Shown piece after piece: positions 4,991 through 15,826 of a DNA stretch of 35,775 nt. The position numbers were made by a program, and so were the translations under genes. The notes under the pieces are model-generated. The model did not search any database. It saw only the letters and a list, made by a program, of their open reading frames with translations, and was not told the DNA's origin. The first letter of the stretch is position 1, and each line of letters begins with the position of its first letter. Source of the stretch: a virus; the IMG/VR virus record IMGVR_UViG_3300030117_006207, positions 1 through 35,775 of that record; one strand, given 5' to 3'.

Positions 4991-7900
4991 TTATACCTGC
5001 ATCCAAATAATTTTTCCAGCACGACCAGTTTGACCATTTTGACCAGTACCACCTACACCATTACTGCTTACTTCTGTTCCGCCCGATCCGCCTGATCCAG
5101 CTGCTCCACCGTTAGCTAAAGTGGTCATACCTGCATTGTTTACAGCTGTTAGATTTGAAGTGGTACATACGATAAGAACTCCTCCAGTACCTCCACCGCC
5201 TCCGCCGCCTCCACATGCAGAATTTCCTGATGCTATGGTGCTAGCACCCATTTTTCCAGCAGTACCACCTGCAGCGCCGGTTCCTGAATTTATACATAAT
5301 GTTTCATCCGTTCCATCATTTCCAGCACTTCCTTGATTTATACTACCAGCACCTTTAGTTACTGCACTATGACCACCACCACCGCTACCAGCACCAGCTC
5401 CTGGTCTTAATCTGGCTGCAGTTTCTGCACTATCCATAACATCTCTGACCATTTGTACAATGTGTGGATCAATAACATCAATTCTTGTTATAGCTGCTGA
5501 AGCCCCACCAGTACCACCAGCAGCTGGACCAATTGTAAAATCAAAAGATGCTGCCTGAATACCACTTCCTACAGTTCCTGTAGGAATTGTAAAAGAGTCT
5601 CCACCACCAGAATTTCCTGGTCCACCTTGTCCACCATTACCACCATCACCACCATTAGCTCGTATAACTCCTGTTCCAGTAATTATTTTTGCATAAATTA
5701 AAACAATGCCACCACAACCACCGCTTCCACCGCCAGCGCCTCCTTGACCTATAACATTTACTGAACCTTCTGCTCCATTTCCACCTGCCACACCAGCTAC
5801 TCCACCACGTAAAGTGCCTGTAGCAGAAGCTGCTCCTGCACTACCGCCTGCAGCGGCACCTGCTGTCTCAGCACCATTAGCGCCGTTTCCACCATCACCA
5901 CCATCGTTGTGAATATGTCCATTGTTAGTTAAAGTACCAAATACAAATAATCTGAATCCGTTTGTTTTTAAGATAACACTTGAATCTATCGTTAAATCAA
6001 AAAAGTATAAATCTTTACCTAATGTATAAGTGGCGCTTGATCTTGTAAATGCGCCTGTACCACCATTAGCATCTGTAAAACTAGTACTACTAGCCTTTGT
6101 ACCGCTTCCATTACCACCATCAGCAACTGTATAATCACCTGTAGACATCACCACAGTTCCATCTGCACCAAAACCAAATAGTCTTGAACGTTCTATAAGA
6201 AAATCTTTTGAAGTTATATCCCCACTCTGTTCAAATGTAATCAGACCACCAGCAAAAACAGCATCACCTGCTGGTTTTAAATGATAACCAGATGAACTGA
6301 TTTCTAAATTACCATTACTACCGCTTACATAGTTTGCATTTATATCACCAAGTATAAATTCAGGTGTTTCTAATTTAATTTGAGAACCTGATAAGAAAGC
6401 TACTTCGCTCATCAAACCAAAACCTGTAAATCCTGATGGTACATTTCGTGTACCTGCAACACCACTTAAATCACCAAGTCTTGCCTTTAATGCCACATCG
6501 TAAATTCCACTGCCTGTTCTTTCAACTATATCTATGTAAGGAGTGGCTTTATTATTTGGATTAGCATTTAATCTCATATAACCAGTTCCAACAGTATTTT
6601 CGCCAGTTCCACTTATATGACGACCTGTACTTACTAAAACCTGACCTTCGGTATAGCTTGCTAAACCACCGATTGGATCTCCTACTGATCCACTCTCTCC
6701 TAATTGTGCTGTTAAAGTTGTTCCTTGATCTATAGCACTTAGAGATGCAGTATAGTTTGATATAGTGATTCCTTTTGGTTCAGTTACGCTACCAGCACCA
6801 GCTGGCACAAGTGATCCTGCTACTCCATCACCGGAATCTATAAAACAGTAGTCTAATTTAAATCCATTTGAATCGGAATCCTGACCTACTACCCTAAATG
6901 TAGTTGATGCACCGGCTGTTCCTGGATCTTCCACATCTCCAATATCATCTAAAATTCTCTTTCCATTTTGAAAAACACAAAATGTTGAAGTTCTTCGATA
7001 ATGTATTTCAAAATTATCACCTGCGCGATGTGGGTGGGGCCCTCCGCCGCTTACATTGTCATCTTGAACTCCATTTCTTATATCATATGTTGCGTTACCG
7101 TTAAACCTTAAAAAGCCAAACATATTTGAATGTTCTGAATCTGTTCCAGCATTGTTATTTCCAAGACCAACACCAGCTGTTTTATCTGTAAAAGTAGGAG
7201 CAAATCTTACTATATACTCATTTGAAGAGCTTCTAACACCACCGCCTGAAGGAGCTCCATGACCAGTTGCTCTACCATCGTTTCCTGATAATATTATAGA
7301 CCCATGAGGTGTATCAACAGTTGCATCTGTTGTATTAAAATTAAAAAGAGTAGCGTTATTAGCAGTACTTTCAGAGACTATTAAATGAACTGAAACTTTA
7401 TCAGCTGCTGGATTAGCTCCAAACCCATCATAAAATGATCTTGGAACAATAAATATTTTTTCGTAATCTCCAGCTGCATTTTTAGTTTGAGCAGTATTAT
7501 CTCCTTCCATTAGTGTAAAGTTAACACCTGATCCACCAGTTGGTAAAGAGCTACTCACAACAGCTTTTATGGTTGCTGAATTTGCATTTACTGTAAAATT
7601 ATTCTTAAAAACCATTGAACTGGTTATAAGTAAATTATGACTCATATCAGCGCCAATAGGATTACCGCCGCCAATTCCTGTATGATGATATTTAGAACCT
7701 GATCTTAAAGGAACTGCCGAAGCTGATATGTAACTACCAGAGTGTTGCCCGACATGAAAGAAATTATTTAATCTGTAGGGTTGTGAACCAAGACCTCTTT
7801 CTACAAAAATCTCACCGCTTAAATTATCAGGATCACCACTACCAAATGATGAGGAAACTAATCTAACATATTCTGTGTTAAATCCTGTGTTGTCAACCTT

Positions 7901-10900
7901 TTTTATTAATAATACTTCACCAGCCGCAAAACCTGTGGCATTTACAACTGACATTGATGTTGCTGTAACTTCTGCAGCAACACCTCCTGAACCTGTTATC
8001 GCAGTTGAGTTAGCTACAAAAAGTTGACCACCAACTGCATTTACACTTTCCTTTTCAAATGTAGTTGTTGCGAGAGTTCCCCTTACTTTTATATTTTCAA
8101 ATTCTGCGTATCCATTTTCTTGAGCAGTTATAATAAATCCTGATTGATCATTTACATAATCGGTTGATCTTATAAAACCTTCCTTTCCTAGTATTAAATT
8201 TCCACCTCTAATTTGAGATTCGTTTACAGTCCAACCACCAACAGATGCTGATACAAATTTTGCAAATCCACTACTATCTATTGAAGAGGAAGCGTTTTGA
8301 GCAGTTGATGGAGAACCAGCTATGGTAGATGGTGTTCGTATATTATCAACTGATAGATTACCTTGTACAGTTAATTGATTTCCTACAAATTGTAAAAATT
8401 GACCACCACTTTTACTACCTAATAAAATTGAACTAGCAGTTACTTCTCCACCTGGCGTTAGATGAAAATCAGATGAACTTATTTCTATATTTCCACCCGA
8501 ACCACTTATGAATTGAATGTCTTGTCTACCTACAAAAAATGAATCTGCTCTAACATCAAAAAGACTTGGCTGTGTTCTAAATTTAAATGAACCACTTTCT
8601 CCAACTAATTCTAAACCAACACCATTATAATTATCTCCACTATCTGGTAAAACAGAACCACTATACATCATAAATCCATATGAACCTGATTGAGCTGATG
8701 CTGATATAAATCCTTGATATCCAACTGACCTTAAAAATCCTGAGCCAGTAGCACCATCTTTTCCAGTTTCAGGTAGTTTAGAATCCTTACCACCAAAATG
8801 TACACCACTTGAAGTAGAATCTCCACCAAGAAATAAATCTCCTGATATAACATTATCAGTACCAGTTATGCTTAAATTAGAACCTTCAAAATTTACATTG
8901 GGTTGATAAATAATTGTTTCTGATATATTGTTGTTTATATCATAAAACTCAACAAGAAACTCAAATTTTTCAGGTCTTTTCTGTTGTAAGTTTGAAGGCA
9001 TTTCTTTTAAAAATGTAAAAAAACTTGGAGAAAATCCAATATCATTTGCGGGTTGAATAGATATATCTGATATATTCCACCTACCCGTAACATTTCTAAA
9101 TTGTATAATTCCGCTACCACTTACATCTGATGCGAAATTTGTTTCTACTAAACCAAAATCTTTCTGTGATTCATCTGCAGCATCTACTCTTAAAACTCCT
9201 ATTCTCTTACCATAAACTCCTGGTTCTTGTATTTTATTTTTTCCAAATTCATCAAAAAATAATTCTTTAGATGGTTTCATTGATGAACCTGAAACATAAA
9301 CCATTAACAAAGCGTTATCTGATAAACCAACATTACCAACAGCATTAAAAGATAAATTGTAATCAACTTCAGGTCTTAAATCAAATTGGTATTGATTTTT
9401 TAATTGAAATCTAACATCTGAAGCGAGACTGCCCGATAGCTGTACAGAATCTATTAAAACATTATTATTATATGATGCAGATACCGATAAAGCAGATGCA
9501 GCTGGCATTTGATTTAATCCATTTGCTCCACCAAAAGTATCATAGTAAATATCTGAATCGGATTGTGATATAAAATAACCAGTTCTTTCACCTGTACTAA
9601 CAGAGTTATTGTCTACGAGTAGTTCATTACCCTCTAATGGAACATCAGCCACTAAAGTATAATCGTCAAGTCCACCTTCTGGTTTTGCATATATTTTTGT
9701 TTTAAATACATCTCCTGAAAATGTTCTTAAATTGTGTAATTGCACATTTGCATGAGATATTAAGTTAACCTCTGAATTTGAGGCTGTAGGAAGTGCTTCA
9801 AAAACAACCTGTCCTTGACCAAATATTGGTAAAACTATATTTTCCTCTTCTACATTTTTATTTGTAAATGGTACATCAACTAATACAGTTTTCTCATTTA
9901 CTATCTCAACTATTGAAGCTGAATAGAAACTAGGAGATTGATTAATTATAGATGGAATTTTAGTAATATCAAAAGATAAATCTGATCTGTTTAAATTGGC
10001 GCTTTGTAATTCTTCATCTGAATAAAAAGTTTGATTGTTAAAAAGATTTTGTCCGACAGTATTTCCATCACCATCTGTAGTTGTGATCGCACCAGCAGAT
10101 GATGCTGTAAAAAAATTTACAGTTCCACCTAAGTGATGAGAACCAAATGTAAAGGTTTCATTTCCATCAAATTCTCCTATTTTTAGTAAATAAGGAAAAT
10201 CAATTGGTGAATTTTTTTTAGTAACTAAACCAGCTCTTTTAGCAACACTATTTTTTCTTATACCTTTTTTATTTTTTAGTTTATTTTGCTCAATAAAAGA
10301 TTGTACATTTTTTTCTTTTTTTGGCTTTGATGTTTCAGATTCTCCTTTTAAATCTCCTTGTACCGTAAGATCTTCATCGATAGCTCCAAATGGTTGAAAA
10401 AGTAAATTTGTATCCGTTGGTAATCCCTCTATGTTAAATCTAGAGCTACTTAAAAAACTTGTAGCCTCAGTTCTAATCATAGTTCCTCTTCTATCTTCTG
10501 AAATATGAACGGATGGTTGAGTAAAAAATTTAATAGGTAATGTGTTAGGTATTGTGGTATTTATCGTAAATTCTTTTATCAATCTAACATTATAATGGCC
10601 AGCGAAGTAAGATGGTACGGGTTCTGAATCACTAAATTGTGTTGCGTCAATTGGTACTGAATCAAGCTCTCCAACTATTATAAGAGTCGCGGTTCCTGGT
10701 GCTACATCACTATAAACTTCGAGACTAACTCTTCTTGCAGTTCCTTCTAAATAGTCATCTACTACCTCAGTATAGATACTATTACCATCAGAGTCTATAC
10801 AATCTATTTGAAATTCTGTATTTTCTCTTATATAAGGTGAAGCTTCTATTAAAAAAGAACTTTTTCCTTGCGGTATCACATCAGGAAAATCGGATACTAT

Positions 10901-10987
10901 AATGTGTCTTGAAGTTCCAACCTCATCAATAAGAACATCAATTTCATCTAAATCTAAAAGCTCTTTGAATTTTTTTACTACTGACAT
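4991..10987 (-). CDS. Giant tail fibre / adhesin with glycine-rich C-terminus
   Basis: 1998 aa. The N-terminal 200 residues look like Ig-like beta structure (ASPYIRENTEFQIDC, about 49-63) and probably attach to the tail. The middle is Ser/Gly/Asn-rich beta material with a repeated module: GNIEISSSDFHLTPGG near residue 835 and GNLEISSSGYHLKPAG near 1560. Residues about 1690-1990 are extremely glycine-rich, with runs such as GGGGGGGGTGG, and the protein ends GKIIWMQV. Glycine-rich tips occur in receptor-binding adhesins of T4-like phages (for example gp38-type polyglycine domains), so host recognition is inferred. AGGA precedes the start. The opposite-strand proline-rich frames in the glycine region are shadows. 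Fibre or adhesin is likely; the receptor is unknown. Confidence 0.8.
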   Translation of the reverse strand: MSVVKKFKELLDLDEIDVLIDEVGTSRHIIVSDFPDVIPQGKSSFLIEASPYIRENTEFQIDCIDSDGNSIYTEVVDDYLEGTARRVSLEVYSDVAPGTATLIIVGELDSVPIDATQFSDSEPVPSYFAGHYNVRLIKEFTINTTIPNTLPIKFFTQPSVHISEDRRGTMIRTEATSFLSSSRFNIEGLPTDTNLLFQPFGAIDEDLTVQGDLKGESETSKPKKEKNVQSFIEQNKLKNKKGIRKNSVAKRAGLVTKKNSPIDFPYLLKIGEFDGNETFTFGSHHLGGTVNFFTASSAGAITTTDGDGNTVGQNLFNNQTFYSDEELQSANLNRSDLSFDITKIPSIINQSPSFYSASIVEIVNEKTVLVDVPFTNKNVEEENIVLPIFGQGQVVFEALPTASNSEVNLISHANVQLHNLRTFSGDVFKTKIYAKPEGGLDDYTLVADVPLEGNELLVDNNSVSTGERTGYFISQSDSDIYYDTFGGANGLNQMPAASALSVSASYNNNVLIDSVQLSGSLASDVRFQLKNQYQFDLRPEVDYNLSFNAVGNVGLSDNALLMVYVSGSSMKPSKELFFDEFGKNKIQEPGVYGKRIGVLRVDAADESQKDFGLVETNFASDVSGSGIIQFRNVTGRWNISDISIQPANDIGFSPSFFTFLKEMPSNLQQKRPEKFEFLVEFYDINNNISETIIYQPNVNFEGSNLSITGTDNVISGDLFLGGDSTSSGVHFGGKDSKLPETGKDGATGSGFLRSVGYQGFISASAQSGSYGFMMYSGSVLPDSGDNYNGVGLELVGESGSFKFRTQPSLFDVRADSFFVGRQDIQFISGSGGNIEISSSDFHLTPGGEVTASSILLGSKSGGQFLQFVGNQLTVQGNLSVDNIRTPSTIAGSPSTAQNASSSIDSSGFAKFVSASVGGWTVNESQIRGGNLILGKEGFIRSTDYVNDQSGFIITAQENGYAEFENIKVRGTLATTTFEKESVNAVGGQLFVANSTAITGSGGVAAEVTATSMSVVNATGFAAGEVLLIKKVDNTGFNTEYVRLVSSSFGSGDPDNLSGEIFVERGLGSQPYRLNNFFHVGQHSGSYISASAVPLRSGSKYHHTGIGGGNPIGADMSHNLLITSSMVFKNNFTVNANSATIKAVVSSSLPTGGSGVNFTLMEGDNTAQTKNAAGDYEKIFIVPRSFYDGFGANPAADKVSVHLIVSESTANNATLFNFNTTDATVDTPHGSIILSGNDGRATGHGAPSGGGVRSSSNEYIVRFAPTFTDKTAGVGLGNNNAGTDSEHSNMFGFLRFNGNATYDIRNGVQDDNVSGGGPHPHRAGDNFEIHYRRTSTFCVFQNGKRILDDIGDVEDPGTAGASTTFRVVGQDSDSNGFKLDYCFIDSGDGVAGSLVPAGAGSVTEPKGITISNYTASLSAIDQGTTLTAQLGESGSVGDPIGGLASYTEGQVLVSTGRHISGTGENTVGTGYMRLNANPNNKATPYIDIVERTGSGIYDVALKARLGDLSGVAGTRNVPSGFTGFGLMSEVAFLSGSQIKLETPEFILGDINANYVSGSNGNLEISSSGYHLKPAGDAVFAGGLITFEQSGDITSKDFLIERSRLFGFGADGTVVMSTGDYTVADGGNGSGTKASSTSFTDANGGTGAFTRSSATYTLGKDLYFFDLTIDSSVILKTNGFRLFVFGTLTNNGHIHNDGGDGGNGANGAETAGAAAGGSAGAASATGTLRGGVAGVAGGNGAEGSVNVIGQGGAGGGSGGCGGIVLIYAKIITGTGVIRANGGDGGNGGQGGPGNSGGGDSFTIPTGTVGSGIQAASFDFTIGPAAGGTGGASAAITRIDVIDPHIVQMVRDVMDSAETAARLRPGAGAGSGGGGHSAVTKGAGSINQGSAGNDGTDETLCINSGTGAAGGTAGKMGASTIASGNSACGGGGGGGGTGGVLIVCTTSNLTAVNNAGMTTLANGGAAGSGGSGGTEVSSNGVGGTGQNGQTGRAGKIIWMQV

Positions 10988-11069: not shown

Positions 11070-11240
11070 ATGAAAAAGAAATATTCTTTTACTATAGAAG
11101 AGGGCTTAGTAGACTGGTTTAGAACATATGTTAGAGAAGAAAGTACTACAATGTCTGCAGTACTTAACCAACATATACTAAAGCTTAAAAGGTCTACTGA
11201 AAAACCTAAAAAATTACTTACTAGTCAAAAAATACATTAG
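11070..11240 (+). CDS. Ribbon-helix-helix (Arc/MetJ/CopG-type) small DNA-binding protein
   Basis: 56 aa, one of only two plus-strand genes. KKYSFTIEEGLVDWF gives the beta strand and helix A. REESTTMSAVLNQHILKLK gives the turn and helix B, the usual RHH fold, and a basic tail follows. The start at 11070 is chosen because GGAG (11057-11060) lies 9 nt before it; the in-frame ATG at 11055 itself overlaps that GGAG and has no site of its own. RHH proteins bind operators as dimers, so local repression of the divergent fibre promoter or of itself is a natural inference. Its last 20 nt overlap the end of the convergent Mre11-Rad50 gene. Confidence 0.7.
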   Translation: MKKKYSFTIEEGLVDWFRTYVREESTTMSAVLNQHILKLKRSTEKPKKLLTSQKIH

Positions 11241-14200
11241 AAAAATTATTCTCTTTCTTTATTTCTAAGAGAGTATCTACAGCATCTCTCATAGAATCTA
11301 TATGAGAAACAATCATCGTAAACTGAAATTGTGATTTCAGATATTGGAACAGATTGTAGACAGAGTTCAAATTGTCTGAATCCATAGTTCCCCAACCTTC
11401 GTCAATTGCCAGAAAGTTAGCAGCTGGTAAGTTACTTACATTTACTAATCCCACCCGTATGGCTAGAGAGGAGATAAATCTCTCCATACCGCTAGATAAT
11501 TCAAGAGGCCATACATTGTCATCATCGTACACTATGTAACAATTAATATTCTTACCATCCATTTCCAATATCATAGAAAAGTCTACTATCTGTGCTAGTA
11601 TATCGTTTACAGCACCCTCAACAGTTGGAAGTGCTTTAGATATTAACTCATACGGAATACCATCTCTTTTTATAGCATCCATATAATATTGGTAAGCAGC
11701 ATATTTATCCTCTAACTCTTCTACTTTCTTTATGTTCTGCATAATAGTTTTTCGTTGAGTTTCTAAGACTTTTATTTCACCATTTACAGATTGAAGTTTT
11801 TTATCTCTATCTTCTATAATATCTTCTATTATATCAGATTGTTGTTGTGCATCTTCAATTTTATTAGTTAGCTTTCTATTAAATATGATATCCATTTCTT
11901 GTTCGTGGTATAGATTAATCTTATCTTCTATGATTGCTAATTGACTAATCAGATTCTTTCTTTTTTCAGTAGTAAGTTTCTTCTCACTATCTAATTTACT
12001 GATATTGGTTGTTAACAAACTCAGGCTATTTATAGACTCATCCATCTGTTCTTTGTGTGCAGTAATATGAGATAAACCATTTATAATGTCATCCAAGTTA
12101 TCAGATTGTTTTACAAAAGTATCTGCTAACATTTTATCATCATTTAGCTTTTTTCTTGTTTCCATAGCATCTAATGTAAACGGATTTGCCATGCAGTAAG
12201 AGCAATTAGAATCGTATTCTAAATTACCAAGCTTTTCAATCTTATCTAACTTATTCTTTACTTCTATTTTTAGTTTGTCAATTTCAATTTGATTATTACT
12301 CTTATCTAATTTATACTGTTCTAATTGAGCAAACTTCTTATCAATCTCATTTTCTCTGTAGATTTTTATCTTTTCATTTAGTTCAGTTTCCTCTACAGAA
12401 AATTGTTCTGATAATGTGGCAATCTCACCAACTCTTTCATCTACTTTATTTAGAGAATTTGTTAGATTAATTTTTCTTTCTTGTAACTCATCTAAACTTT
12501 CAGCAGTTTCATCAACCTTTTTAAGTTGTTTAGTAAGTTCAATAATTTTTTTATCATATTTTTTCTTATCGGAAACTAACTCTTTTTTCTTAGCAGTTAA
12601 TTCTTTAGAATCTTTTTTCATATCAACTAATTCTGTTTTAATTTCTGCTAAATCCTTATCGTAATTATTTTTAGAAAATGATTTAAGAAGTGATTGTACA
12701 TCGTGAATTTCATCAGCAGCTAAATTATATAATTGGTCAAATACACCAATACCCATAAATTGTGCTAGTAAGTCTTTTCTTTCTTTTTGTGTCTTATCAA
12801 TAAAAACAGTTGAGTTAGATTGTAAAGATAATGAGGTCATAATAAAATCTTCGTATGTACCAATTACCTTACGAATATTTACATCCGTTGTTCTTCTTTG
12901 ATCTCCATTCATAGAAATTTTTTCACCATCATCAGCAAATGTATAGAAATCCACATTAACTTTTACATGACCATTTCTCTGTTTTTTGCCTGTCCTTTCT
13001 ATAAAGTATTCTACACCATCTACTTCTAATGTAGCCTTACAATAGAAATTATCTTTTTTACTATTAAGGACATTTATAGCTTTGTAAGCTCTAGAAGATG
13101 TATCGAATAAACAAAATGAAAGAGCATCTAATAATGAAGATTTACCACTTGCGTTTGGTGCGAACATTCCGATTATACCACTTAGTTTTGTGAAATCAAC
13201 CACATTGTTTTCTCCATAACTAAACATATTATCAAACTCAAACTTTTTGACTTGCCAGGTTACACCTCTATTTACATTATCCTCAGGTAATTTGACATTG
13301 AGTTCTTCATTGATTTTCTTAATATCGATAAGTGTATTTTCATCAACAAAATGATTTGTTTTGAGATATTCTTCTATTAAGCCGTACTGATAATCAGCAT
13401 CTCTAATATTTCCTACTGTAATTCTCTGACCACGTACCTTTTCTATAGCTGAAAATGAGTCTGTTTTTGTAACCGATACTTCTTTTATTCCATACTTACT
13501 ATGGATAAGAGTCATAGCTTTCTTTAACTGTGATGGTGTAGTTTCAGAAACCCTAACTCTTAATCGAGCCTTCTTTGGCATATCAGGACACTCGGGAACT
13601 TGCCCATCTTTTATATCTAAAGTATAATAGCCGTAGTCATTTGGTATTTCAATATACTCTGACTTTCTCTTTGGAACATCCCACAATAAATAACCGTGGC
13701 TCAGTCCTTCACCATGATTTTGTTGAACTAAACTACCACAATAGGATATGGTTTCTTTTTTATTAAGATGCTGTCTTTTGTGGATGTCACCTAGCAATCC
13801 CAAATCGTAACCTTTGAACTTAGAGATTTTAACATCAGATGGTAAGAAAAATCCTAAGTCCGTTTCTGACTTATCAACTGTTCCGTGAAAAAGAACTACC
13901 TTAGTATCACCATCAAAGTCTTTAGCTTCTATATAATCATCTTCTTTTTCCCATACATCCCATACAACAAACTTTACATCAGCACATTTGTATACACCAC
14001 TACGCTTTAAGTAGTGTAAATCAGAATGTTGTAGGTTGTTTACGATAGGAGAAAGAACATCCATTCGAGATAGATTATTTAAATTACAATCGTGATTGCC
14101 TGCAATAATAATTGTAGGACATATATCTGCCAGATTCTTAAATAATCGTGAGAGCTGATCGACTAATTCAGGCGACATTTCGGTTTTAGAGTGAGCTATA

Positions 14201-14376
14201 TCTCCACCAATATAGACTACGGCATTATCTTTATGTTTTTTTACTTCTTCGTATGTACGTTCAAATACTTCTTCATATTCTATGTGTCGCTTTAGATTAC
14301 GGATTTGAATGTCCGAAATATGGTGTATGTATTTTAACTTACGAAAAGGTACTTTAACAACATTTTCTTTAATCAA
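11221..14376 (-). CDS. 47-46: Single-chain Mre11-Rad50 (gp47-gp46) recombination nuclease fusion
   Basis: 1051 aa. Residues 1-260 are a Mre11/SbcD metallophosphoesterase: HISDIQI (19-25), GGDIAH (57-62), AGNHD (92-96), FHG (163-165) and GDIHKRQ (196-202). Residues 374-1051 are a Rad50/SbcC ATPase: Walker A APNASGKSS (406-414), a long coiled coil split by a CSYC zinc hook (725-728), signature LSSGMERF (960-967), Walker B FLAIDEGW (988-995) and VSHID (1023-1027). In T4 and in cells these are two genes whose products form a complex that resects DNA ends for recombination-dependent replication. The start is TTG with AAGGA 6 nt upstream, overlapping the previous stop as TTGA. The first Walker A glycine appears replaced by alanine. 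Confidence 0.93.
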   Translation of the reverse strand: MIKENVVKVPFRKLKYIHHISDIQIRNLKRHIEYEEVFERTYEEVKKHKDNAVVYIGGDIAHSKTEMSPELVDQLSRLFKNLADICPTIIIAGNHDCNLNNLSRMDVLSPIVNNLQHSDLHYLKRSGVYKCADVKFVVWDVWEKEDDYIEAKDFDGDTKVVLFHGTVDKSETDLGFFLPSDVKISKFKGYDLGLLGDIHKRQHLNKKETISYCGSLVQQNHGEGLSHGYLLWDVPKRKSEYIEIPNDYGYYTLDIKDGQVPECPDMPKKARLRVRVSETTPSQLKKAMTLIHSKYGIKEVSVTKTDSFSAIEKVRGQRITVGNIRDADYQYGLIEEYLKTNHFVDENTLIDIKKINEELNVKLPEDNVNRGVTWQVKKFEFDNMFSYGENNVVDFTKLSGIIGMFAPNASGKSSLLDALSFCLFDTSSRAYKAINVLNSKKDNFYCKATLEVDGVEYFIERTGKKQRNGHVKVNVDFYTFADDGEKISMNGDQRRTTDVNIRKVIGTYEDFIMTSLSLQSNSTVFIDKTQKERKDLLAQFMGIGVFDQLYNLAADEIHDVQSLLKSFSKNNYDKDLAEIKTELVDMKKDSKELTAKKKELVSDKKKYDKKIIELTKQLKKVDETAESLDELQERKINLTNSLNKVDERVGEIATLSEQFSVEETELNEKIKIYRENEIDKKFAQLEQYKLDKSNNQIEIDKLKIEVKNKLDKIEKLGNLEYDSNCSYCMANPFTLDAMETRKKLNDDKMLADTFVKQSDNLDDIINGLSHITAHKEQMDESINSLSLLTTNISKLDSEKKLTTEKRKNLISQLAIIEDKINLYHEQEMDIIFNRKLTNKIEDAQQQSDIIEDIIEDRDKKLQSVNGEIKVLETQRKTIMQNIKKVEELEDKYAAYQYYMDAIKRDGIPYELISKALPTVEGAVNDILAQIVDFSMILEMDGKNINCYIVYDDDNVWPLELSSGMERFISSLAIRVGLVNVSNLPAANFLAIDEGWGTMDSDNLNSVYNLFQYLKSQFQFTMIVSHIDSMRDAVDTLLEIKKENNFSNVFFD

Positions 14377-14591
14377 GTATTATCCTTTAAGAACTTTTTA
14401 ACTTTATCAATTTTATTATTTGGCACTATGACATCCCAAGCTGTTTCTTTAGAAAGTCTACCACTTTCGTAGTATATAGTAGAACTGTCCAAGCCAAAAA
14501 CATCGTAGAGTTTTTTAAGAGTGTCGTTATCGCTAATGTGAACTTTCCATTCATCATCATTAAATTTCCATATATTTTTTTGTTTTGCCAT
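14373..14591 (-). CDS. Small protein of unknown function in replication cluster
   Basis: 72 aa, MAKQKNIWKFNDDEW onward, mixed charge, with Trp/Tyr-rich segments and a Lys-rich end; no motif recognised. AGGATGAAGTTAAATG supplies a ribosome binding site. Its start lies 32 nt inside the end of the primase gene and its stop overlaps the TTG start of the Mre11-Rad50 fusion, so it is translated between them. A small accessory factor of replication or recombination is a guess from position alone. Confidence 0.65.
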   Translation of the reverse strand: MAKQKNIWKFNDDEWKVHISDNDTLKKLYDVFGLDSSTIYYESGRLSKETAWDVIVPNNKIDKVKKFLKDNT

Positions 14592-15498
14592 TTAACTTCA
14601 TCCTAATTAAATCTGAAAAGGAAGTTTTTGATGATTTTTTTATAACATCAATAACCTTCGTAAATCCCATTTCAGATGGATCTTTGTCTTTCAATCTTAT
14701 TAATTGAACATCGATTCCATTTCTCATAAGCACATCTGTCATCTTTATCGAATCCCAATACGCATCACTATCTAATAATATATATATAGTTTTAACCTGT
14801 TTTTCATATATTTTTTTCATTAATTTTTTTGGTATGGTTTTTCCGAAAAGTGGGATTACATTTCTCTTTATTGCTATAGCATCAAAAACACCCTCGCATA
14901 ATATAATAGGTTCATCCCAATTTATGAATAACTCAAATCCTATAACATTTTTACTGATAGGTGGATTCTTATATTTCATTCCCTCTTTGTAAATATTTCT
15001 ACCTACGAAGTAATTTAATTCACCTTTGGCATCATAGCTTGGTATTATAACTCTATTGGAATATAAACCCTCACTACAATATCCAATACCATATCTCATA
15101 ACATCTGCTTTTGTAATTCCCCTATTCTGTAGATATACCCAAGAATGTCTTTGAATTATCCCATCTCCATTTCCCCATATGGGCTTAAATTCTTTTGGAA
15201 GCCTCAATATCTGTTTTTTGTCGGAAGTTTGTGATGATAGTGATTTAGAGGGTTTACCTACTATATCACCTAACTCTGTAAATTGTTCCCTACTGGCTTT
15301 TAATTTTTTGAGTAACTGAAAGAGATTGTGGCCACCTTGATTGGATACCCAACAATGCCATTTGCCAGTCTTTACATTAATCTGTAATTTTGGTTTATGA
15401 TGTGAAGTGAAAGGAGACCAATACATATATTCATCGGCCTTTTTTAATCGTCTACCACGATTTCCTATTACTCTATTTAGAAGATTTATTATTTTCAT
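14560..15498 (-). CDS. DNA primase, DnaG/TOPRIM type with degenerate N-terminal zinc domain
   Basis: 312 aa. The TOPRIM core shows ILCEGVFDAIAI (199-210, catalytic E202) and ILLDSDAYWDS (240-250, DSD metal ligands). It is preceded by the RNA-polymerase-like part with YGIGYCSEGLYSNRVIIP and FVGRNIYK, typical of DnaG primases. The N-terminus (25-62, including WSPFTSHHKPKLQINVKTG and WHCWVSNQGGHNLF) aligns with the CHC2 zinc domain, but the usual cysteines are mostly replaced and only C49 stays. It would make RNA primers for lagging-strand synthesis. It is shorter than bacterial DnaG and has no visible helicase-binding domain. It overlaps the nuclease gene by 26 nt. No strong Shine-Dalgarno is seen, so coupling is likely. 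Confidence 0.88.
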   Translation of the reverse strand: MKIINLLNRVIGNRGRRLKKADEYMYWSPFTSHHKPKLQINVKTGKWHCWVSNQGGHNLFQLLKKLKASREQFTELGDIVGKPSKSLSSQTSDKKQILRLPKEFKPIWGNGDGIIQRHSWVYLQNRGITKADVMRYGIGYCSEGLYSNRVIIPSYDAKGELNYFVGRNIYKEGMKYKNPPISKNVIGFELFINWDEPIILCEGVFDAIAIKRNVIPLFGKTIPKKLMKKIYEKQVKTIYILLDSDAYWDSIKMTDVLMRNGIDVQLIRLKDKDPSEMGFTKVIDVIKKSSKTSFSDLIRMKLNGKTKKYMEI

Positions 15499-15826
15499 TT
15501 ATCAATTCTATAAATTTTTCAATGTTAATTACAGCGTATGTTTTACTTCTGTTTCTTTTAAATATCAAAACAGGAGAGTAATCACCACTATTTTCTTCTG
15601 CTTGTTTCAATGAATCCCATACATTAAGTTTTTCTTGATTTTTACATTCTATTGCAAATGGTATAAGTTTTCTAGCTGCTGGTGATAATTGTAAATCCTC
15701 ACCTGATACACCCATTGATGTACTTCTGATATCATCGGGTTCTAATTCTGTAAATGTTTCTAAAAGTAAGTCTCTGACTTTTTGTTGTAGTCTCCGGCCT
15801 TTGGCCTTCGCTGAAGAAGTTTTCAT
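15473..15826 (-). CDS. PD-(D/E)xK Holliday-junction-resolvase-like endonuclease
   Basis: 117 aa. The run SAKAKGRRLQQKVRDLLLE, then DIRSTSMGVSGEDLQLSP and FAIECKNQEKLNVW, matches a phage family annotated as putative Holliday junction resolvases or endonucleases. The acidic residues of GED and the ECK triad are the metal-binding site of the PD-(D/E)xK fold. A final RNRSKTYAVINIEKF strand completes the domain. It is first gene of the DNA-processing cluster, ahead of primase and Mre11-Rad50, which suits a role in trimming branched replicative DNA before packaging. No Shine-Dalgarno is evident at the ATG. Family placement is confident; the precise substrate is not. Confidence 0.8.
   Translation of the reverse strand: MKTSSAKAKGRRLQQKVRDLLLETFTELEPDDIRSTSMGVSGEDLQLSPAARKLIPFAIECKNQEKLNVWDSLKQAEENSGDYSPVLIFKRNRSKTYAVINIEKFIELINENNKSSK

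Follow-up and report, generated by a model that had tools for sequence, protein, structure and literature searches.

The established role of gp46/47 in phage T4 is the processing of DNA ends for recombination-dependent replication. These homologues of Rad50 and Mre11, zinc hook included, are products of two genes lying in the order Mre11 then Rad50, and SbcD and SbcC of Escherichia coli likewise come from two genes. A single-chain version has nevertheless long been on record: R555 of Mimivirus was recognised as an Mre11/Rad50 fusion together with twelve more such fusions in a Bacillus phage, bacteria, plasmids and eukaryotes (Yoshida, Claverie and Ogata 2011; PMC3175470). The same authors put the linker length sufficient for fusion at 9-12 residues, described in R555 a GDxxH motif and an Asp (Asp242) in place of the His206 equivalent, and ascribed many marine R555 homologues to phages on the basis of size fractions, read counts and neighbouring phage genes, including primases (PMC3175470). 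The preliminary description of the locus considered here had taken two genes to be the rule in T4, bacteria and eukaryotes alike, and had thereby implied that the fusion was novel; neither point survives comparison with this literature, in which the architecture was published in 2011 (PMC3175470).

The locus lies in a stretch of 35,775 nucleotides (IMG/VR record IMGVR_UViG_3300030117_006207; hereafter the window) and is a phage homologue of the kind predicted in 2011, because its linker has about 12 residues, it carries both GDxxH and GDIH, all 70 loci with enough flank have a primase gene directly before the fusion, on its upstream side, and its contig belongs to a tailed phage, with baseplate wedge genes present. 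The minus-strand frame 11221-14376 is open throughout and encodes 1051 residues, Mre11 followed by Rad50 in one chain; its start codon is TTG and shares bases with the TGA of the preceding 72-residue ORF. The parts of the fusion and its neighbours are as follows.

11221..14376, minus strand: Mre11-Rad50 fusion gene, 1051 aa (open frame, family matches, fused frame kept in relatives)
13642..14376, minus strand: Mre11 catalytic domain, residues 1-245 (alignment of 128 fusions, alignment with Thermotoga Mre11, structural matches to Mre11/SbcD)
Within residues 1-245: Mre11 motifs SDIQ (21-24), GDIAH (58-62), GNHD (93-96), HG (164-165) and GDIH (196-199)
14305..14307, minus strand: codon of Gln24, which replaces the motif I His of DxH (128-fusion alignment)
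13786..13788, minus strand: codon of Asp197 in GDIH, which replaces the first His of GHxH (Asp in 128 of 128)
13447..13641, minus strand: Mre11 capping domain, residues 246-310, approximate (model, and Mre11 match to residue ~303)
13294..13398, minus strand: predicted helix-loop-helix, residues 327-361 (model helices 327-341 and 346-361)
13258..13293, minus strand: linker, residues 362-373 (362-372 without secondary structure; least constrained region)
12697..13257, minus strand: Rad50 N-lobe, residues 374-560 (model residue 374 equals E. coli SbcC residue 1; motif counts)
12193..12204, minus strand: zinc hook C-S-Y-C, residues 725-728, at the tip of the coiled coil, 561-900 (CxxC invariant)
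11224..11676, minus strand: Rad50 C-lobe, residues 901-1051 (motif counts; structural matches to Rad50/SbcC)
14373..14591, minus strand: 72-aa ORF between primase and fusion (ORF list; present in 32 related loci)
14560..15498, minus strand: DnaG-type primase (PHROG 47, E 1.1e-38)
15473..15826, minus strand: RusA-like/PDDEXK resolvase-type nuclease (PHROG 244, E 7.5e-21; Pfam PDDEXK_15)

Family searches divide the product in the same way. Pfam places Metallophos at residues 17-168 and AAA_23 at 382-623, PHROG 77 (SbcC-like) spans 374-1048, and Pfam, PHROGs and NCBIfam together give an N-terminal calcineurin-like phosphoesterase and an SbcC/Rad50 ATPase from about residue 374 to the end. With the frame open, these families in place and the relatives fused too, the earlier reading of Mre11 and a complete Rad50 (residues 374-1051, CSYC zinc hook included) as one polypeptide in one frame stands. 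That the fusion fixes a 1:1 stoichiometry also follows from the single chain, although the two-gene Mre11/Rad50 complex is 2:2 as well. Elsewhere in the window (4991-10987) lies a gene for a 1998-residue protein, probably a tail fibre, whose C-terminal part is very glycine-rich and to which similar sequence occurs in 55 related loci.

An AlphaFold2 model of the fusion (mean pLDDT 79) has a pTM of only 0.50 and so does not fix how the halves lie with respect to each other. In the model, residues 10-303 align with Mre11/SbcD structures at Z ~23 (Thermotoga Mre11, E. coli SbcD) and residues 374-1051 correspond to Rad50 (Z 28.5 against the E. coli SbcC head), residue 374 pairing with residue 1 of SbcC in the structure alignment; long helices flank the C-S-Y-C hook on both sides. 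The capping region had been thought to join the Rad50 N-lobe directly, whereas the model puts between them two helices (327-341 and 346-361) followed by an unstructured stretch up to residue 372, that is, a helix-loop-helix and a linker of about 12 residues. By analogy with the Thermotoga maritima complex, the source for the role of such an element at the base of the Rad50 coil (PMC3175470), the helix-loop-helix 327-361 is expected to bind there. Among viral proteins, the best structural matches come from giant viruses, namely Tupanvirus (E 1e-70, 1379 aa), Harvfovirus, Yasminevirus and Catovirus; these long proteins align over almost their entire length, and such near full-length matches point to a common ancestry with R555. 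What ties the window protein to R555 itself is the set of motifs published for R555, together with the structural matches to R555 relatives. Both proteins have an N-terminal Mre11 and a C-terminal Rad50, GDxxH, Asp for the His206 equivalent and a short linker; they differ in host entity (giant virus versus phage), in length (1351 versus 1051 residues) and in motif I, where R555 has DxH and the window protein Gln.

How widespread is this arrangement? Viral contigs were scanned twice, with 79 and at least 80 loci as the outcome, some contigs being common to both, with 594 true relatives among the 600 candidates listed in the second, and a scan of genome contigs added four further loci. A full-length fused single frame was present in 77 of the first 79 loci and in 82 of the 84 later ones; all four exceptions reach contig ends, and no viral-contig relative with the entire gene on its contig departs from the single fused frame. 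There are at least 128 distinct full-length fusion proteins, 38-95% identical to that of the window, and the alignment with T4-type gp46/gp47 originally proposed for gauging the spread of the fusion finds T4 and CBB unfused and XacN1 fused. The fusion is common to hundreds of aquatic phages, occurs in giant viruses too and is ordinary for its group. A megablast search of phage records returned nothing close to this region, and a plasmid search gave weak partial matches only. A cultured counterpart is WWT39521.1 of Microcystis phage Mel-JY01, a full-length fusion with ~39% identity and the same order of primase, small ORF (57 residues in the place of the 72-residue ORF) and fusion; unlike the window protein it has kept the motif I His, and its annotation reads no more than 'AAA domain containing protein'. 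In each of ten long sequences (nine contigs plus complete Mel-JY01) the fusion is the only AAA_23 match. It is also the only Metallophos match in the 190-kb Mel-JY01 genome, which lacks a separate Mre11/Rad50 pair, and three of the long contigs have extra Metallophos proteins of 219-271 residues without a Rad50 partner.

Both halves are under strong purifying selection as protein. Across 27 close sequences, dN/dS is 0.037 in the Mre11 catalytic domain and in the Rad50 C-lobe, 0.079 in the N-lobe, 0.14 in the coil and 0.19 in the linker. In the same sequences, synonymous variation at codons 41-60 (window 14196-14256) is only 0.25-0.37 against a gene mean of 0.63, and these codons look as if they overlapped some signal. 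An interrupted copy occurs in LR756508.1, a 484-kb uncultured phage (L084:5959-10184), where the gene is broken just past motif V (GDIHKRQ) by an ORF of 305 residues that includes a TnsA-like endonuclease domain; the N-terminal portion stops and the remainder resumes in another frame, resembling a mobile intron, and an Rfam search of this copy matched no known intron family.

The Rad50 half is complete in its motifs, with Walker A (APNASGKS, residues 406-413), Q-loop, signature (LSSGME), Walker B (FLAIDE), D-loop (GWGTMD), His switch (VSHI) and the CxxC hook, the two Cys of which are invariant among relatives. The Ala noticed in place of the first Gly of Walker A is genuine, but with Ala in 124 of the 128 fusions and Ser in the other four it is no peculiarity of the window; T4, cyanophage S-BM3, a T5-like Vibrio phage and E. 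coli have Gly there. The general P-loop pattern [AG]-x4-G-K-[ST] permits Ala in the first position.

The Mre11 half is less regular, and the claim that all its motifs are present holds only in part: D22, D59, N94, catalytic H95, H164 and H199 are there, and two His ligands are Gln and Asp. HMMER pairs GDIH of the window with GHIH of Thermotoga Mre11, which also carries GDxxH. Motif II GDxxH, motif V GDIH and GNHD are each invariant in the 128 fusions, and motif I is DIQ in 53 (52 relatives besides the window protein), the remaining 75 having D[IV]H. The DxQ form is thus specific to a lineage and GDIH common to the whole family; as motif I varies within a single clade, the DxH of R555 is not treated as diagnostic of R555-like fusions. 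The replacement of DxH by DxQ is patchy on the tree, His members sitting among Gln members, which suggests that it may have occurred more than once. Since Gln24 and Asp197 take the place of two metal-ligand His, the nuclease could be altered or weak, and the DxQ metal site is the least explained part of the fusion. Might the Mre11 half then have lost or changed its nuclease chemistry and serve mainly as a DNA-binding, dimerising scaffold for the Rad50 half? Of the seven ligands to be expected (D, H, D, N, H, H, H), two are replaced, which speaks for this; yet Gln and Asp are able to bind metal, the six residues listed above are invariant in the alignment of relatives, most family members keep DxH, and the catalytic domain is as constrained as its dN/dS value indicates, and we regard a mere scaffold as unlikely.

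A second alternative, that T4-type gp47 and gp46 were fused recently in the window phage, bears on origin. The order of the halves is that of T4-like phages, and there is a precedent in Xanthomonas phage XacN1, whose ORF305 (L089:3473-6772; 1099 aa, annotated merely as recombination endonuclease subunit) is also an Mre11-Rad50 fusion and whose nearest relative in the set, the T4-like jumbo phage CBB, is unfused. In a FastTree phylogeny of the concatenated domains, however, the window falls in a large fused clade that also contains the 735-kb huge phage LR756501 (support 1.0) and stands apart from the clade of T4, S-BM3, CBB and XacN1 (0.999), in which XacN1 groups with CBB (0.996); and its motif V is GDIH, not the GHFH of T4 and XacN1. 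T4 differs further in its Walker A (GRNGGGKS) and E. coli SbcD/SbcC, which share the folds of the window protein, in their canonical metal ligands. A recent fusion of this type is accordingly very improbable. Because the window clade and XacN1 fall in separate clades, phages have made the fusion at least twice, that of XacN1 having arisen independently within the T4/CBB clade. Deep branches of the tree are uncertain, the sequences being very divergent. How a fusion can happen is illustrated by CBB, where the two genes share a frame with 12 nucleotides from stop to start.

Such a pair could be joined by a single error, but that a sequencing or assembly error near residues 340-380 of the window hides a stop and a start is next to inconceivable, given that the viral-contig relatives complete on their contigs are all fused in many independent assemblies, that the isolate Mel-JY01 is fused as well, and that the junction carries no constrained start signal. 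An internal start for a free Rad50, or a hidden stop and restart, is rejected on the same ground: synonymous variation at codons 330-400 (0.59-0.87) is not lowered relative to the gene mean, and nothing there hints at a second start.

We are therefore left, with considerable confidence, with the reading that the window protein belongs, as a phage representative, to the R555-like Mre11/Rad50 fusion family; its most likely function, by analogy with T4 gp46/47, would be to resect DNA ends for recombination-dependent replication. One chain would bear both halves of the MR nuclease, and two chains would pair via Mre11 and via the ATP-bound Rad50 heads to give the usual M2R2 complex, the helix-loop-helix 327-361 docking onto a Rad50 coil at its base and the linker of 12 residues bridging the C-terminus of Mre11 to the N-terminus of Rad50. 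ATP binding would shut the heads over the nuclease and hydrolysis would open them, allowing Mre11 to cut DNA ends; the 3' tails thus exposed may feed recombination-dependent replication and repair together with the neighbouring primase and resolvase. A bolder proposal, which we offer as possible though rather doubtful, is that a large marine phage lineage has a single chain as its sole Mre11/Rad50 machine, in which the DxQ and GDIH site shifts metal preference or cutting chemistry relative to characterised Mre11. The literature searched contains no biochemistry for any member of the fusion family.

What, then, is gained from this locus? The fusion architecture was already known and the fusion as such is no new principle; what is new is a phage member with good gene context. 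A single-chain MR complex lends itself well to structural studies, as the preliminary description had suggested, and two independent fusions can be tested in phages already in culture, Mel-JY01 and XacN1. The prediction made in 2011 from short scaffolds, that the abundant marine R555-like fusion genes are largely those of phages, is now given a phage gene context.
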